Source: Loigolactobacillus coryniformis subsp. coryniformis KCTC 3167 = DSM 20001 (GTDB lineage: Bacteria > Bacillota > Bacilli > Lactobacillales > Lactobacillaceae). Taken from it: a stretch of DNA of 64,000 nt. Positions 247 to 11,390 of the stretch are shown here, piece by piece. A program made the translations under genes and the position numbers. Each line of letters opens with the position of its first letter. Position 1 is the first letter of the stretch. The notes beneath the pieces were generated by a model. The model worked only from the letters and a program-made list of their open reading frames with translations. It did not search any database and was not told where the DNA came from. The stretch is from positions 682,001 to 746,000 of the forward strand of contig NZ_CP017713.1 in assembly GCF_002706425.1 (NCBI RefSeq), given 5' to 3'.

Positions 247-556
247 GCGCTGGTTGTTGAACAAAGCGAACATATAAAGCACTGATCGCCAGGGTAAATA
301 GTAGCCGGCCAATAAAGTAAGTTAAGGTGATCTGACCATTGAGCGCGAGTCCGTTAAGCAGCGCGCATACCAGTAGACCAACGATTCCGCTCCAGAAAAA
401 CCAGCGACTAAAATGAGTTAAGTATAAAAGTAGGGCAAAGCCTAAATTAACAACCATCAGTGGCACAGAAAGTTCACCCATAATACCGCTGGTAAGCGCG
501 CCGATCAACATACTGAGCGCGTATAAATAGATTAAAATTTGAGTCATCAACCGCAT
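233..556 (-). CDS. Small four-helix membrane protein, function unknown
   Basis: 107 residues with four predicted hydrophobic segments (about 5-24, 30-47, 51-71 and 78-97) and a short polar C-terminus; no signal peptide or catalytic motif is visible. The ATG at 556 is preceded by an AAAGGAG SD at good spacing, so MRLM is preferred over the inner MTQ. It follows the acetyltransferase gene by 35 bases on the same strand and probably shares its transcript. I do not recognise the family. Confidence 0.75.
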   Translation of the reverse strand: MRLMTQILIYLYALSMLIGALTSGIMGELSVPLMVVNLGFALLLYLTHFSRWFFWSGIVGLLVCALLNGLALNGQITLTYFIGRLLFTLAISALYVRFVQQPAQKND

Positions 557-3914: not shown

Positions 3915-5513
3915 ATGGATAAAAAAGAATTAACAACGGCGGTTGACCGGCGGCGGACTTTTGCAATTATCTCCCATCCTGATGCTGGTAAAACGACGAT
4001 CACGGAGCAGTTATTGCTTTTTGGTGGCGTCATTCGTAAGGCGGGTACGGTCAAGGGTAAAAAATCAGGACAATTCGCTAAATCTGATTGGATGGAGATC
4101 GAAAAGCAACGTGGGATCTCGGTAACCAGTTCAGTCTTGCAATTTGATTATCAAGGTAAACGGATCAATATTTTGGATACGCCTGGGCATGAGGATTTCT
4201 CTGAAGATACGTATCGGACTTTGATGGCCGTCGATTCTGCGGTGATGGTAATTGATGCGGCTAAGGGAATCGAACCACAGACAAAGAAGTTATTTAAAGT
4301 TTGTCGGATGCGCGGTATTCCAATTTTCACTTTTATGAATAAATTAGATCGTGATGGTCGTGAACCTATGGATCTGATCGATGAATTAGAAGAATTATTG
4401 GATATCGAGGCATTTCCAATGAATTGGCCAATCGGTATGGGAAAAGGCCTTGAAGGTTTATACGATATTCATAAACAACGTGTTGAGTTATACCATGAAG
4501 ACGCAAACGGACAGCGTTACTTACCAGTCGATGAAGACGGTCAGATTGTTGGTGAACATCCGTTGAAGAAGGAATCGATTTATCAGCAAGCGTTGGAGAA
4601 CGTTCAGTTATTACTGGAAGCCGGTAATAAATTTGATGCAGATAAAGTCGCCCGTGGGGAACAAACACCAGTCTTCTTTGGTTCCGCATTAACCAACTTT
4701 GGGGTCAAAACATTTCTGGAAAGCTACTTAGAGTATGCGCCAGCACCAGCGGCACATAAAACACAAGCAGGTGACATGGTGGCACCAACTGCGGATAACT
4801 TCTCCGGTTTTGTTTTTAAGATTCAGGCGAATATGAATCCTAATCACCGTGATCGGATTGCTTTTATTCGAATCTGTTCCGGTGAATTTGATCGCGGCAT
4901 GGATGTGACGTTACAGCGGACCCAGCGTAAATTACGTTTGGCCAATTCAACGGAGTTTATGGCGGATAGCCGTGAAAGTGTTGAAACGGCAGTGGCAGGC
5001 GATATTGTTGGTCTATATGATACGGGGAACTTCCAGATTGGCGATACGATCTATACCGGTAAGCAAAATATCCAGTTTGAAAACTTACCTCAATTTACGC
5101 CGGAATTATTCGTTAAGGTTACCGCCAAGAACGTGATGAAGCAGAAGTCGTTCCACAAAGGAATGGAGCAATTGGTTCAAGAAGGTGCCGTGCAACTTTA
5201 CCGGACCTATACGACCAATGATTATGTACTAGGTGCCGTCGGCCAATTGCAATTTGAAGTCTTCCAATTTCGGATGAAGAATGAATATAATTCGGATGTT
5301 GTGATGGAACCGATGGGTGAAAAAATTGCCCGTTGGATCGATCCTGAGCAATTAGACGAGAAAATGTCCTCGTCACGGAACCTTTTGGTACGTGATCGTA
5401 GTGGGGCACCATTGTTCTTGTTTGAAAATCAATTTGCTGAGCGCTGGTTCAAACAGAAGTATCCCGATATTAAATTAACGGAAAAACTGTCTACGGATAC
5501 TGTCGGGGCATAA
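3915..5513 (+). CDS. prfC: Peptide chain release factor 3
   Basis: 532 residues, the normal length for RF3. It is a translational GTPase that releases RF1/RF2 from the ribosome after peptide hydrolysis. The G domain shows the P-loop SHPDAGKTT (about 20-28), the G3 box DTPGHEDF (about 90) and G4 NKLD (about 143); the rest matches EF-G-like domains II and III. ATG 3915 has a GGAAGGA SD. Its terminator has been split by an IS3-family element inserted just downstream, so transcripts may now run into the element. Confidence 0.97.
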
Positions 5514-5599: not shown

Positions 5600-6274
5600 A
5601 TGTCCAGATCTAAGTTCACAGTTCTCGAGAAGCTCAATTTAATTGAAGATTATCAGCAGTCGGGGCTCCCTAGGGCTACTTATGAAAGGCGGCATGGGAT
5701 CGGTAAAGATACACTTAGAAGTTGGTTGATACGTTATCAAAGAGATGGTCTAGAAGGTCTGCAAGAAGCAAAGAAGAATATTCACTATAGTAAGGAGCTG
5801 AAGCATACAGTTGTCTTTGCGTACTTAAATGGAGAAGGTACATTTGGTGAGTTGGCGGACAGATATGGTCTGCGTAACGCTACCCAAGCACAAAACTGGG
5901 TTACCAAGTATAATGAGGACAAACCTTTGACGGCATCGCCGTCCAGAAAGCGGGTCCCCACTATGCCTAAGAAGACAACTTTCGAAGAACGAATTGAAAT
6001 CGTTGAGTACGTAGTCAAACATAAACATTCATACGCTGAGGCCGCAGAGCACTTTCAAGTCTCCTATCAGCAAGCACGATCTTGGGTGCTTAAGGCCAAG
6101 AACGGTGGTTATGAGGCCCTCGTCGATAACCGTGGTCATCACAGGGACGAGTCTGAATTGACTGATCTCGATAAGGCAAATCTTCGCATCCGCCAGCTGG
6201 AAGCTGAGCTTAAAGATAAAGAATTGGTGGAACAATTCGCAAAAAAATTGCTGGAACTTCAGCGCAAGGGGTGA
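5600..6274 (+). CDS. IS3-family transposase OrfA (helix-turn-helix protein)
   Basis: 224 residues with two helix-turn-helix units (about 1-60 and 115-170, the second beginning FEERIEIVEYVVKHKHS) and a C-terminal coiled coil rich in Glu, Lys and Leu (LRIRQLEAELKDKELVEQFA). OrfA binds the element ends and provides the N-terminal part of the OrfAB transposase. ATG 5600 has a GGAGGG SD. Its TGA overlaps the GTG of orfB. Confidence 0.93.
   Translation: MSRSKFTVLEKLNLIEDYQQSGLPRATYERRHGIGKDTLRSWLIRYQRDGLEGLQEAKKNIHYSKELKHTVVFAYLNGEGTFGELADRYGLRNATQAQNWVTKYNEDKPLTASPSRKRVPTMPKKTTFEERIEIVEYVVKHKHSYAEAAEHFQVSYQQARSWVLKAKNGGYEALVDNRGHHRDESELTDLDKANLRIRQLEAELKDKELVEQFAKKLLELQRKG
6241..6247 (+). promoter_or_regulatory. 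Programmed -1 frameshift slippery heptamer
   Basis: A run of seven A residues lies in the zero frame as A-AAA-AAA (codons GCA AAA AAA TTG). The -1 frame is open from here into orfB with no stop. This is the canonical site for making the OrfAB fusion transposase in IS3-family elements. Confidence 0.75.
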
Positions 6275-7164
6275 ATAAACAGCATCAACTGGCCTACGTC
6301 GCAATCAAAGAGGTCAGTCAAGGCAAGCGCGGTGCGCTTACCAAGTTATTAGCTGTTGTCGGCGTAAGCCGGCAGGCTTACTACAAAGGCTTAAAGCGTG
6401 AAGAAACAGCTTGGGAAGTTCGTGATCGTCAACTCAAGGAACGGATACAATACTGGTTTGATTTCCATCATCAGAGCATCGGTGCTGGGAATCTCTTAGT
6501 GAATCTACAGCATGATGAATCGATTACGTTTGAAGTGACCTATAAAATGGTTCGGCGTGTGATGCGAGAGCTTGGACTGAGGTGTCAGATTCGAGTCAAG
6601 AAACACAGTCGTCAAAAAGCTAGTGAGCAGTACGTCCAAGACAATGTCTTAAACCAAAATTTTGATACGGACGCGCCTAACAAAGTTTGGTTGTCCGACT
6701 CGACTGAATTGAGATTCGGCCCGAATGGTGAATACAAAATTCGACTGAGTGGCGTTCTTGATCTCTATGGACGCCTTCTCTTGGCACACAACCTTAGCAT
6801 TACCGAAACCTCAGCTGCGGAAATCGAAGTGTTTCAACGTGCATTTGATCGTGTTGGAGACGTTCATCCATTGATTCATACGGATCGCGGCTCAGCTTAT
6901 ACATCTGGTGCCTTCAACAACTTTCTAGGCCGTTACGATGTGATACGCAGTATGTCTCGTCCAGGCACACCATACGATAACGCGCCGATGGAACGTTGGT
7001 GGAATGAGTTTAAATTGCGTTGGATGGAGCGTCATCCGATGCCTAAGACCCTTCAAGAACTCGAGAAGCTGGTTGAAGAAGGTATTGAATACTTTAATCA
7101 CCACAACCGTTCGGCACAAAGAAACGGCCTCACTCCAGATGAATACTGGAATGAAGCCGCTTAG
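6271..7164 (+). CDS. IS3-family transposase OrfB (DDE catalytic domain)
   Basis: 297 residues with an HTH_21-like N-terminus (IQYWFDFHHQSIGAGNL) and an rve/DDE integrase core. The catalytic acids are the D in WLSDSTELRF, the D in LIHTDRGSAYT and the E in NAPMERWWNE, followed by the family's EGIEYFNHHNR tail. GTG 6271 overlaps the orfA TGA, allowing coupled translation, but the functional enzyme is probably the frameshift product OrfAB. Confidence 0.93.
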   Translation: MNKQHQLAYVAIKEVSQGKRGALTKLLAVVGVSRQAYYKGLKREETAWEVRDRQLKERIQYWFDFHHQSIGAGNLLVNLQHDESITFEVTYKMVRRVMRELGLRCQIRVKKHSRQKASEQYVQDNVLNQNFDTDAPNKVWLSDSTELRFGPNGEYKIRLSGVLDLYGRLLLAHNLSITETSAAEIEVFQRAFDRVGDVHPLIHTDRGSAYTSGAFNNFLGRYDVIRSMSRPGTPYDNAPMERWWNEFKLRWMERHPMPKTLQELEKLVEEGIEYFNHHNRSAQRNGLTPDEYWNEAA

Positions 7165-7226: not shown

Positions 7227-7240
7227 GGTTACGATTTTTT
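7227..7240 (-). terminator. Right arm of the IS-split bidirectional terminator
   Basis: The complement of 5515-5528. On the minus strand this arm plus its A/T tract would have formed the terminator of the MucBP-domain gene, whose stop codon (7239-7241) overlaps it. The partner arm is now 1.7 kb away. Confidence 0.7.
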
Positions 7241-8348
7241 ATTGCAGTCGTTTAATTGGCGATGTGAAGTCATGACCGGCTGATAGTAAACGTAGATAAT
7301 GTTCTTCAAGCCAAGTATGATCCTCCAGTTCATACCACACACTGTTGTTCGATAGGATCAAACCATGAATGATGTTGACGATTTGCCCATGTTGCAAGTA
7401 ATTCGCCGCATCGCCATAAGGCTGTGTCCAAGTACGTAAGGAGCGCTGTGGAATGAAATCGACGACCGCGCGCCGTGAACCCGGAATAACCGCTGCTTGT
7501 TGAAATAGTGGGGCCGCAATTACTTGCTGCTTTGGCTGCTGATAGTATTCAACACGTTCCGTATGGTCAGTTGCGATCCATTGTCCGCCTAAGTCATACC
7601 AAGTTTGCCGATCGGTGGTTTGAACTTTTTGGTAAACGCGCCAAATGGTATTAGTTGGTAGCTGTTGTGCTAATGCTGCCTTACCAGGTTCACGATAACT
7701 GGTAACTGGCATCGTTAGACGCACAAAGCCAGTTAAGTAACGATTAGCCCACCGAATGACTCGTGGTCGATAAGAATAAGTCACGATTTGTGTTTGTTCG
7801 CTGAAATGGCCTACCTGATTGGTAGTCACATGTTGAACGCGATAAAGTTGCGAATCGAGAAAATGGGTTTCATAATGTTGCCCCAGCTGCCCAACTAAAT
7901 ATTCTGGTGGTGTCAGTAAGTGATGATTTTCGTCAAAGTGAAAAACGATAACTGGCGCCGCTGGTTGTTGAGCGTAAATTAACTGGATAATGGCCCGTGG
8001 ATAAACAAAATAACCATGATAATTTTCGATTCGGCTAATATAATAGTCATCAAATTGATGGACCGTGAATTTGAAAGCTTGGCCGCGCACGCCACTAATA
8101 ATCTGTGGTTTAGCTAAGCGTTCACCGGTTTCTGTAAAGTAAAAAACGATCACAAAAGAATCGGGCTGAACATGAATACTAGGTTGATGATGACTTGAAA
8201 TTGGCAGATAGGCTTGGCGAGTTGGTGAGGGTAGTAGAATTGGCCGCCGCCGCGCAATTGGTTGATAATCTGGTCCCATCGGTAGCTGTGCAGTTGCAAC
8301 TTGCTGCTGAGGGTTAAAGAAAGCTTTGAGTCGTTTTAAAAAGTTCAC
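7239..8348 (-). CDS. MucBP-domain protein without signal peptide
   Basis: 369 residues. After a basic, Pro-rich N-terminus (1-60) come two MucBP-like beta modules (about 64-127, with VIVFYFTETGERL and a final aromatic IIQLIYAQ strand; and about 131-195, VIVFHFDENHHLL to TQIVTYSYR), then two SH3/GW-like repeats (about 203-270 and 283-350, each ending in a W-Y-E/D-L segment). Such modules normally sit on secreted mucin- or wall-binding proteins, yet there is no signal peptide, transmembrane helix, LPXTG or other export signal. The GTG start has a GGAGG SD. It may act inside the cell, leave by another route, or derive from a surface protein that lost its signal. Confidence 0.75.
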   Translation of the reverse strand: MNFLKRLKAFFNPQQQVATAQLPMGPDYQPIARRRPILLPSPTRQAYLPISSHHQPSIHVQPDSFVIVFYFTETGERLAKPQIISGVRGQAFKFTVHQFDDYYISRIENYHGYFVYPRAIIQLIYAQQPAAPVIVFHFDENHHLLTPPEYLVGQLGQHYETHFLDSQLYRVQHVTTNQVGHFSEQTQIVTYSYRPRVIRWANRYLTGFVRLTMPVTSYREPGKAALAQQLPTNTIWRVYQKVQTTDRQTWYDLGGQWIATDHTERVEYYQQPKQQVIAAPLFQQAAVIPGSRRAVVDFIPQRSLRTWTQPYGDAANYLQHGQIVNIIHGLILSNNSVWYELEDHTWLEEHYLRLLSAGHDFTSPIKRLQ

Positions 8349-8445: not shown

Positions 8446-8721
8446 CTAGTGATTTAATGAAATTTCGGCTAATTTTTCGGAAGTGATCACGTTAAGCCCC
8501 GCTCGTGTCCGTTGTGCGAGTTGTTCAAGAACAAAATCAATCTCTGCAGGAGTAATGTTACGCTGTCGATTCGTTAATAGAATCTCGTCGTGGGTAGGGG
8601 CTTTTGAAAAGATAACTAATGTATCGGTCAAAGAAAAAATTTGTACACTAGTGGCATCGGTATTATTTAATTGACTAGTAACTAAGTTTTCGTAATCGGT
8701 AGTAACCTCTTGTAGTTGCAT
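8446..8721 (-). CDS. Small conserved protein, DUF1827-like
   Basis: 91 residues, acidic and soluble, with the pattern V-x2-Y-E-N-L-V-T-S-Q-L near the start and RQRNITPAEIDFVLEQL in the middle. From memory this matches the DUF1827 family of enterococci, streptococci and lactobacilli, often found next to clpE as it is here. Function is unknown. A clear AAGGAAG SD precedes the ATG at 8721, and a TATAAT promoter lies about 60 bases upstream. Confidence 0.75.
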   Translation of the reverse strand: MQLQEVTTDYENLVTSQLNNTDATSVQIFSLTDTLVIFSKAPTHDEILLTNRQRNITPAEIDFVLEQLAQRTRAGLNVITSEKLAEISLNH

Positions 8722-8782
8722 TAACGCGCACTTCCTTTATTAATATTTAGCGCTGATGAACCTAAATAATGATGACACTTAC

Positions 8783-8805
8783 ATTATAGTGGAATTTCAC
8801 CCAAA
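8783..8805 (-). promoter_or_regulatory. Promoter for the DUF1827-like gene
   Basis: On the minus strand a consensus TATAAT (plus-strand 8783-8788) is preceded by a T/G-rich -35-like region (TTGTTT, 15-base spacing). It is placed correctly for the gene starting at 8721. Confidence 0.55.
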
Positions 8806-8861
8806 ACAAAATAAAATTCACGATAAAAGCATAATCGATCAGTTTTATTTACAAAAAAGGA

Positions 8862-9009
8862 GTGTGATATAAGGTGCCCAGCTACTACTTCACAGTAGCA
8901 GTTGATTTTCATACTGAAAATCCTTGATGTTTCGGACGTTGACCATTCTTGTGGTAAAAAACTTGCCGCAAGAAACATGGCAAGCGGAAAAAGTTGCCTT
9001 ATGTCACAC
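8862..9009. repeat. 150-bp nested-hairpin element
   Basis: The outer arms 8862-8874 and 8997-9009 form a 13-bp stem with one wobble. Inside are three further hairpins: 8881-8886 with 8894-8899, 8904-8911 with 8915-8922 (8 bp, 3-base loop), and 8962-8967 with 8979-8984. No convincing gene lies in it. It could be a MITE-like repeat or a structured RNA; its outer arm resembles the arm of the adjacent clpE terminator (gagttgcgacataa). Which strand is transcribed is unclear. Confidence 0.55.
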
Positions 9010-9034
9010 GTTTTGGCTATATTGTTTGGAAGTA

Positions 9035-9077
9035 TAAAAAAAGAGTTGCGACATAAATTACTTATGTCGCAACTCTC
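9035..9077 (-). terminator. clpE terminator
   Basis: A 14-bp perfect stem (9043-9056 with 9062-9075) is followed on the minus strand by a run of seven T residues (plus-strand A run 9035-9042). It lies directly after the clpE stop codon. Confidence 0.9.
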
Positions 9078-9091
9078 TTAATCAACTGGCG

Positions 9092-11326
9092 CTAGTCGTC
9101 AGTTTTTTTATCTTCTGTTTTTGGTGTTGGTTCTGTTGGTTGGTAGGGACCAATTACGATTTGATCATCCTTAACGTTAGCCGATAACGACTTGGTCTCT
9201 GCATGATCCAAATAATAATCAGCGATTCGATCTTCGATTTGTTCTTGGATCACACGCCGTAATGGCCGTGCCCCCATTGCAGGGTTATAACCTAAGTCAA
9301 CTAATTTTTCTTTAGCTGGTTGAGTGACGTGAATCGTCAAACCTTGATCAGCGGTCATCTGATTAACATCGTTCAACATTAAATCAACGATCTGAATCAA
9401 ATCTTGTTTCTTCAACGCATTGAATTCAATAATATCGTCGAATCGATTTAAGAATTCAGGTTTGAAGTAATTAGATAATTGATCCAAAATTGAATGCGTG
9501 TTGCCAGAAGCAGAGGCACTGAAACCAACATTTGCTTCAGCGTCGCCCTGACCGGCATTAGACGTCATAATAATGATCGTATCCTTGAAGCTAACAGTCC
9601 GTCCTTGCGCATCGGTCAAGCGACCATCATCCAAAATCTGCAGGAACATATGCATAACATCAGGATGGGCTTTTTCGATTTCATCTAATAGGACCAAACT
9701 ATATGGGTTACGCCGAACCTGTTCAGTTAATTGACCAGCTTCTTCGTAACCAACATAGCCAGGAGGTGAACCGATTAATTTAGACACTGAGAATTTCTCC
9801 ATATATTCACTCATATCAAAGCGAATCATTGAATCCTCAGAACCAAATAGTTCAACTGCTAATTGCTTAGCCAATTCTGTTTTCCCGACACCAGTTGGAC
9901 CAACGAAGAGGAAGGAGCCAATTGGCCGGCCAGATTTATTGAAGCCAATCCGGTTACGCCGAATTGCCCGAGCAACTTTATCAACCGCTTCAGTCTGGCC
10001 AATTACATGACTGTCCAAATCAGAAGCTAGAGTTTTGAGTTGCTTTTGTTCCTTACTGCGTAATTCACCAACAGGGATGTTTGTCTTTTCTTCAACGATC
10101 TGTTCCATGTCTTTAACACTAACTGCAGGTGTTTCTTCAGTGGACGTGTCGTCTTTTTGCATTTTTTCTAACTTGTTGACTTGGTCACGGTAATAAGCCG
10201 CTTTTTCATAGTCTTCTTGTTTCAATGCTTGTTGCTTTTGTTCTTCTGCTTGATCCATTTTTTCCTTGATCACTTTAGGATCAACGGTATCGATCGTTAA
10301 GTTCTTACGTGAACCAGCTTCATCGAGTAAGTCAATGGCCTTATCTGGCAAGTAACGATCCTGGATGTAGCGATTAGAAAGATTAGCAGCAGCTTCGATG
10401 GCTTCATCACTATATTTAACGTGATGATAGTCTTCATATTTCTTCTGTAAACCTTTCAGGATTTGAATCGTTTCTTCAACGGTTGGTTCATCGACCCGAA
10501 CTGGTTGGAACCGCCGTTCAAGTGCGGAATCTTTTTCAATTTTACGATATTCATTTAGCGTCGTGGCACCCATTAATTGGAAATCTCCACGGGCAAGAGC
10601 TGGTTTCAAAACATTACCAGCATCCATACCGCCTTCAGCGTTACCGGCACCCATGATTTCATGAATTTCATCAATAAAGAGGATCACATTCGTATTTTTA
10701 CGGACTTCATCCATTAATTGTTGCATCCGTTGTTCAAATTGACCACGGATACCAGTGCCTTGAACCAAAGAAACAACATCTAAACGAATGACTTCTTTAC
10801 TTTGTAGTTTTTGTGGTACCTGACCGGCAACGATTTTTTGGGCTAGGCCTTCAACAACGGCTGTTTTACCAACCCCAGCTTCGCCAATTAGAACAGGGTT
10901 ATTTTTCGTCCGCCGATTAAGGATCTCGATCACACGAGAAATTTCTTTGTCCCGGCCGATAACGGGATCGACTTTACCTTGGCGGGCAAGGTTAGTCAAA
11001 TTGATCCCAAATTGAGCCAACAAGCCACCGCCGTTTTTATTGTTGCCACGGCCACCACCATTACGTCCAGCTTGAGTTTGCGGACCTTGTTCGAAACCCA
11101 TTTGCTGGTTGGCATCCATGCCACCTTGACCCATAGCACGGAAAATGTCATCTAAATTACTAAAGCCAAAAGGATCACTAGGGCCTGCATTACGCACTTG
11201 GCCGCCTTGCTGCTGCTTTAATTGCTGATAACAATTCTGGCAGAGATCGATTTGCTTACGGGCGCCATTCACATTTGTGTACAAGTGAATCGTTGCCTCG
11301 TTTTTGCGACAATTTTGACACAGCAT
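9092..11326 (-). CDS. clpE: ATP-dependent Clp protease ATP-binding subunit ClpE
   Basis: 744 residues from the ATG giving MLCQNC. Order: N-terminal zinc finger with two CxxC pairs (CQNC and CQNC), a Gly/Asn/Gln-rich linker, AAA-1 with Walker [14 protein letters not shown] and Walker [10 protein letters not shown], a UVR coiled-coil domain ([20 protein letters not shown]), AAA-2 with [13 protein letters not shown] and [13 protein letters not shown], and a ClpB-D2-small C-domain. It unfolds substrates for ClpP under stress. The frame is open 15 codons further (to 11371), but that ATG has no SD and known ClpE proteins begin at the zinc finger; neither start has an ideal SD, so the start is uncertain. 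A CtsR box and promoter lie just upstream. Confidence 0.95.
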
Positions 11327-11390
11327 AGATCGCTTCACAACCTTTCGTACGAGTTCTGTATCGTAGCTCATTCTAAAAGATCAAAATTCG

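Follow-up and report, generated by a model that had tools for sequence, protein, structure and literature searches.

What is the compact nested fold that lies between the clpE gene and a DUF1827-like gene of Loigolactobacillus coryniformis, and how is it related to the clpE terminator beside it? The original prediction, made within the window (the whole stretch of 64,000 nucleotides that was analysed), saw a nested-hairpin element of about 150 bp. We consider it likely that this is a dispersed repeat of a modular, BOX-like and non-autonomous type, one cassette of which, M1, is also dispersed alone or in tandem at Shine-Dalgarno (SD) regions.

Fold and limits of the element beside clpE

The Pfam domains agreed with the neighbours that had been named. 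PF08860 was found in the DUF1827 gene (8446-8721, - strand; E 3.8e-25), and the AAA_2, ClpB_D2-small and UVR domains of the gene at 9092-11371 (- strand) support a ClpE-type AAA+ ATPase, the name clpE itself having been given by reading. The nested fold predicted between these genes is present. Positions 8862-9009 (+ strand) reached -55.5 kcal/mol in the RNA fold, better than every one of 200 dinucleotide shuffles (-31.0 kcal/mol, sd 3.5), which gives z = -7.1; for the opposite strand z was -3.7. An outer stem enclosing three hairpins had been described correctly, except that the minimum free energy structure gave this stem 14 bp instead of 13 and added a fourth, weak small hairpin to H1, H2 and H3. 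The 5' outer arm GTGTGATATAAGGT (8862-8875, + strand) pairs at 14 of 14 positions with its closing partner, the inner 3' arm GCCTTATGTCACAC (8996-9009, + strand). Between the arms lies the M1 cassette (8882-8981, + strand), in the order H1-H2-linker-H3, made of the predicted hairpin H1 (GCTACTACTTCACAGTAGC, 8881-8899, + strand), hairpin H2 (GATTTTCATACTGAAAATC, 8904-8922, + strand), which is the stem of M1 that covaries, and the predicted hairpin H3 (CCATTCTTGTGG..CCGCAAGAAACATGG, 8943-8980, + strand). Our model of M1, R1, matched the window copy at 8885-8980 with 101 bits and an E of 1.9e-21, this copy being itself part of R1, and this was the sole match with E < 0.2 in the window.

The fold does lie within 8862-9009, but the size of about 150 bp drew the element short. 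Limits set from 36 copies of frame 1 in four species showed that the entire element is 217 nt long (8860-9076, + strand). In the window copy the inner arm CCTTATGTCACAC is followed on its 3' side by a conserved stretch (GTTTTGGCTATATTGTTTGGAAGTA there) and then by the element's terminal hairpin (9042-9076, + strand), and this 3' part, hairpin included, was found again in the other 35 of the 36 frame copies (four species). The predicted absence of coding content stood, as the M1 repeat period of about 97 to 113 nt across copies makes coding unlikely. A coding reading of the - strand (MFLAA.FLPQEW...) was rejected because the unit period and the loop length vary in ways that break the frame.

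Copies of the element in the genome, the genus and the family

A BLASTN search for copies, which had been suggested as a check, gave at least 72 matches in the element's own genome, and all 8 Loigolactobacillus genomes examined carried the element. R1, which describes the M1 unit of about 100 nt, was built on alignment A1, containing 61 of 69 picked units after removal of L083, L108 and L113 (false regex hits), L082 (has N), L116 (other module upstream) and L048, L111 and L115 (truncated or near-duplicate). It identified 134 M1 units at 81 places in the own genome. The pattern of the frame 5' arm matched 30 times in this genome at two mismatches or fewer, while the reversed control pattern gave 0 matches; five of the 30 were inner arms (four by sequence and L250 by context), leaving about 25 frame 5' ends.

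R1 was positive in at least 18 of 397 family genomes, namely the 8 of the genus and at least 10 others in six further genera, these counts being lower bounds obtained with strict filters and scoring of ten candidates per genome. The records with names that carry copies belong to six Loigolactobacillus and three Pediococcus species. Two genomes of other genera, G357 (L142) and G280 (L145), had single weak M1-model matches, with E of 4e-8 and 7e-7, respectively; these two loci have no DNA in common with loci L134 and L152 of G196, though their contig coordinates are equal.

The window element had no match in the plasmid and phage collections searched, and carriage by a plasmid or phage was rejected on these collections. 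Rfam covariance models gave nothing on the element at the gathering score in the window and 20 element loci, ruling out membership of an Rfam family at that score, and a search of 8700-9130 at E up to 5 gave sub-threshold matches alone. A literature search, with subscription papers mostly outside its scope, found no named description of this repeat family.

Modular organization: frames and cassettes

Comparison of the copies showed that a frame, made of the outer arms and a terminal hairpin that is often terminator-like, holds exchangeable hairpin cassettes between its arms. Read by eye, frame 1 is GAGTGTGACATAAGGC ... GCCTTATG(T/G)CACACGTTTTAGCTATATTGTTCGGAAGTACAAAGAAGGAGTTGGACATAA....TTATGTCACAACTCC. 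Alignment A2 of this frame covered 32 of 36 copies, excluding L032, L213, L216 and L220. Again by eye, the ends of the frame are terminal inverted repeats, GAGT.GTGACATAAG at the 5' end and the complement, with small differences, at the 3' end. In the 28 copies having both arms and the end, 9 to 14 of the 14 positions of the outer arms pair.

The frames contained, by eye, M1 in the window, M2 alone in L049, L178 and L180-L183, M1-M2 in L055, M2-M1 in L044 and L068, and no cassette in L249. Also by eye, L243 is a short form that stops right at the outer stem; the two outer arms of L250 are linked by a few bases. A second frame type with different arm sequences was seen by eye in L056, L066, L070 and L191, and the complete frame of L183 sits, again by eye, within an M1 leader unit. 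The H3 stem was replaced as a whole in L104, L044, L068 and L165. A further cassette (CGACTTGGACTTGCC...) was noticed by eye inside M1, between the linker and H3, in L034, L051, L095, L094 and L116, as was an additional hairpin within the H3 loop of L051 and L194.

Covariation and strand of folding

Covariance analysis, the second check that had been suggested, showed that H2 and the terminal hairpin covary, in a family without an Rfam match. In the 61 M1 units of A1, 9 of the 10 pairs of H2 were altered on both sides, and H2 and H3 together had 92 cells altered on both sides. The whole-structure covariation score of M1 was 0.193, compared with 0.079 for shuffled alignments (0 of 500 reached it) and 0.055 or less for slid versions of the structure. 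The 61 units contained 43 distinct H2 stems, with a mean of 9.0 pairs versus 5.3 in mononucleotide shuffles. RNAalifold alone recovered H3 only, in our view because the length of H2 differs between units. H3 was nearly invariant in A1, a conservation that is partly due to ascertainment, since units L071-L117 were located by an H3-stem pattern, and its T.G wobble was kept in 59 of 61 units; H2 was outside the pattern. Among 32 copies of the terminal hairpin, both sides were altered at 7 of 15 pairs, a number reached by 4 of 500 shuffles, and 16 cells gave a score of 0.162 (0 of 500 shuffles).

The energy of the + strand was lower in 22 of 28 copies, and the conserved G.T of H3 speaks for + as the folded strand. 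Column-based counts of G.U versus A.C gave 1:8 for the H2 arrays, 8:15 for the frames (p = 0.38) and 21:18 for the terminal hairpin (p = 0.75), and so no preference for the + strand in these three sets. These counts overturned the suggestion of a first count (p = 0.08-0.09), which arose in part from an artefact in loop pairing and was rejected.

Frames at gene ends and the candidate terminator of clpE

Among the 29 copies with a 5' arm, 20 had the stop codon of a same-strand ORF within 150 nt upstream, 16 of these at 5-17 nt. Five or more T in the nine nucleotides past the terminal stem were found on the + strand in 20 of 33 frame copies (those of the 36 with a defined stem end) versus 339 of 3600 random positions (9.4%). 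The window copy departs from both patterns: it is placed antisense and downstream of clpE, in the orientation opposite to the usual one, and with 3 T in 9 on the + side it is outside the 20 T-run copies.

On the clpE strand (-), a stem of 19 pairs at 9079-9039 is followed by T7 (complement of 9036-9042), so that the GC-containing stem and U run of an intrinsic terminator are found on the - strand at 9079-9039. The window element most likely acts as the clpE terminator in reverse orientation, as its sequence suggests, and this copy has probably become that terminator. Reading the hairpin at 9042-9076 as the clpE terminator thus remains sound as a candidate, the correction being that the hairpin belongs to the element. 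The common origin proposed for terminator and element is supported: the hairpin named as the clpE terminator is the terminal hairpin of the element itself, and the GTGACATAAG repeat on which it is built is also that of the outer arm.

The M1 cassette in gene leaders

Outside the frames, M1 occupied the leaders of about 50 genes, in 1 to 5 copies and antisense to the gene. At all 32 multi-unit sites the unit ended, on the gene strand, in TAG, with a purine-rich SD region immediately after it and the start codon 4-18 nt beyond the M1 end. The same SD placement was found at 17 of the 20 single sites picked as leader-type (the misses being L231, L239 and L051) and at 670 of 6160 random positions (10.9%); the test covered all 32 multi-unit sites and 20 of 49 single sites, picked as outside frames, L193 not being included. 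Names assigned by eye from the N-termini show the adjacent genes to be a mixed set (prfA, trxA, rbfA, truA, mutS, dnaX and others). M1 sites were on the - strand in 38 of 42 cases within 0-1.57 Mb and on the + strand in 31 of 39 in the remaining chromosome, as expected if M1 sites are antisense to leading-strand genes.

The spacer between adjacent units was 2 nt in 51 of 53 neighbour pairs. The tandem arrays probably grow locally following one arrival, because units were 96.7% alike within a site and 74.1% between sites (62 of 134 units, from 25 of the 32 multi-unit sites). The mean predicted accessibility of the SD, from a crude fold, was 0.44 with the array, 0.48 with the flanks joined and 0.41 with a shuffled array; no systematic change caused by the array was found among the 26 sites compared, of 29 (p = 0.23 versus joined flanks and 0.58 versus shuffled), a sample in which a unit junction was taken as the SD for one site, L187. 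Masking or opening of the SD by the M1 array was rejected on this result.

Other sequences adjoin some of these leaders. A Group II intron domain (RF00029, 49.3 bits) lies at 457-527 (+ strand) of L034, upstream of its M1 leader array, and by eye the same intron sequence adjoins the M1 array of L033. Another large hairpin module (GGAGGYGYTGGCGTATC...GGAATG) lies upstream of prfA in L165 (G007) and L167 (G001), and pieces resembling it are found in L166, L075, L080 and L099.

The same sites in related species

In the gap between clpE and the DUF1827 gene, neither an element match by blastn nor an M1 unit by R1 was found in 7 of 7 other species. The window copy is lineage-specific, since this gap is without the element in all seven. 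Each of them has a terminator-like hairpin after clpE. Judged by eye, six of the seven hairpins are unrelated, and the seventh, in G007 (L120), resembles the window terminal stem, with 9 of 11 positions alike (GAGCTACGACA versus GAGTTGCGACA). G007 also has AGTGTGAT some distance upstream of this hairpin, where blastn gave no match, and its hairpin may be native and common to both species or may be what is left of an eroded element. The promoter region of the DUF1827 gene is kept, by eye, in the closer species, and the A run at 8853-8858, left of the element, may be the T tract of an earlier native terminator. The clpE flanks are too diverged between species to read a target-site duplication.

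In the own genome, a single M1 unit separates the promoter from the SD in the trxA leader; it is missing in 7 of 7 other species. The SD is conserved on one flank of this site, as is the promoter on the other where the leader was displayed, and comparison of empty and filled sites leaves at most an ambiguous AG as target-site duplication. The own prfA leader contains three M1 units and a rest, and G007 has two units there, in the same position, whose stems are different; R1 found no M1 in the prfA leader of the six remaining species, and G001 and G004 have at this place AATTGTGAGGTAA, which resembles a unit end. At rbfA, the own genome has one unit and a rest and G003 has, by eye, a half unit without H3; R1 found a full unit in the rbfA leader of the own genome only. 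The prfA units of the own genome and G007, like the half unit of G003, may go back to old shared insertions with later divergence and not to repeated arrivals.

Nature of the element and its proposed spread

The original prediction left the choice between a MITE-like repeat and an undescribed structured RNA, and the copies throughout genome and genus, the covariation and the empty site in seven species support it. On the dispersed-repeat reading that we favour, copies would spread via a recombinase or transposase acting on the hairpins, frames landing at terminators and M1 at SD regions, and the tandem leader arrays would then extend through local duplication. The window copy would have landed within the native clpE terminator region, where its terminal hairpin and the T7 on the clpE strand would now end the clpE transcript, which suggests a route by which a repeat takes over a native terminator. 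At leader sites, M1 might form part of the mRNA, as a structured segment of its leader, a weaker part of this proposal. The zero-offset placement of M1 at dozens of ribosome-binding regions calls for an SD-recognising insertion mechanism or strong selection. It is a tentative proposal that M1 is a self-spreading 5'-leader cassette, its insertion aimed at SD sequences, that has entered about 50 unrelated genes in 1 to 5 copies with the ribosome-binding sites undisturbed; if true, a mobile element gave unrelated genes of one bacterium a common structured leader, whose number of M1 copies could tune expression.

A functional structured RNA (a cis-regulatory leader, a 3' UTR RNA or a small RNA), selected at each site and not mobile, would account for the covariation of H2 and the terminal hairpin, for the one exact position that M1 arrays hold relative to start codons and for the many frames directly after stop codons. 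We judge it rather unlikely, as the occupied sites differ among close species, the genes next to the arrays are of mixed kinds (the list from prfA to dnaX above), the accessibility of the SD is not systematically changed and G.U versus A.C shows no strand preference.

REP and REPIN sequences are palindromes with a GTAG or GGAG foot that occur in pairs and arrays, with RAYT. Single-strand transposition of this kind, in which a Y1 transposase (RAYT or IS200/605) would target SD-like purine runs, would fit the hairpins with such a foot, the insertion always to one side of a constant short motif and the G.T wobble conserved in H3. The search for a Y1 transposase (PF01797) gave 0 matches in the own genome, a difference from REP/REPIN on which it was rejected as the mover; of the 8 genus genomes, G003 and G002 had matches (L158, L159 and L160, one of which carries internal stops), and 5 of 14 control genomes were positive. 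As the own genome and five others of the genus lack PF01797, yet all eight carry elements, we regard this mechanism as improbable. An autonomous parent transposon was not found either: the 13 further 5'-arm matches (two mismatches or fewer) were short or truncated elements with no ORF of 150 aa or more inside. The window itself contains at 5600-7164 (+ strand) a two-frame transposase pair with HTH and rve integrase core domains (Pfam), read as IS3 type and flanked by a peptide-release-factor-3-like ORF (3915-5513, by reading) and a MucBP-domain protein (7239-8348).

That the patch is just the native clpE terminator region with hairpins formed by chance, as a terminator is expected there, other species show one and the one in G007 looks, by eye, like the terminal hairpin, is scarcely credible against the fold z of -7.1, the same parts in dozens of copies and the missing sequence in other species.

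Comparison with known systems

By analogy, the nearest known kind to this dispersed repeat is the pneumococcal BOX element. As outlined in part of PMC3049150, BOX elements of Streptococcus pneumoniae and S. suis have fixed end modules around internal modules that vary in number, together with terminal inverted repeats and a predicted stem-loop RNA; they often lie between convergent genes, can be inserted into one another and number 125 in one genome. The same composite plan of fixed outer and variable internal modules is found here (none, M1, M2, M1-M2 and M2-M1), in other genera, the comparison being by description and not by boxA or boxC sequence. Unlike in that outline of BOX, the internal cassette here also occurs singly or in tandem arrays, with a fixed position at the SD region in about 50 genes, there are several cassette and frame types, and the last part of the frame is a terminator-like hairpin that covaries. 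Our results thus add a BOX-like modular repeat system in the Lactobacillaceae.

SPRITE of S. pneumoniae is outlined in the same source as a terminator-like repeat close to gene 3' ends, with one long duplex and a long U tract (PMC3049150). The frames resemble it in being terminator-like repeats near gene 3' ends; they differ from this outline in being modular elements with several branches, of which the last hairpin is the terminator.

Two systems are comparable to M1 in leaders. The CREN (REP2) repeat of Neisseria is a repeat of about 150 bp directly before genes (PMC9031163, in part), a position that M1 shares, and, compared by description, it differs in that the part of that source used describes no tandem hairpin cassettes. 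The TAACTGA direct repeats of Beggiatoaceae form many tandem sets directly upstream of the start codons of genes without a common function, their 7-nt units overlapping the expected ribosome-binding site, mostly with no SD (PMC4679880, in part). M1 arrays are likewise start-adjacent tandem repeats at genes of no common function, but, relative to that partial account, their units are structured, about 100 nt long and end exactly at the start of the SD region.
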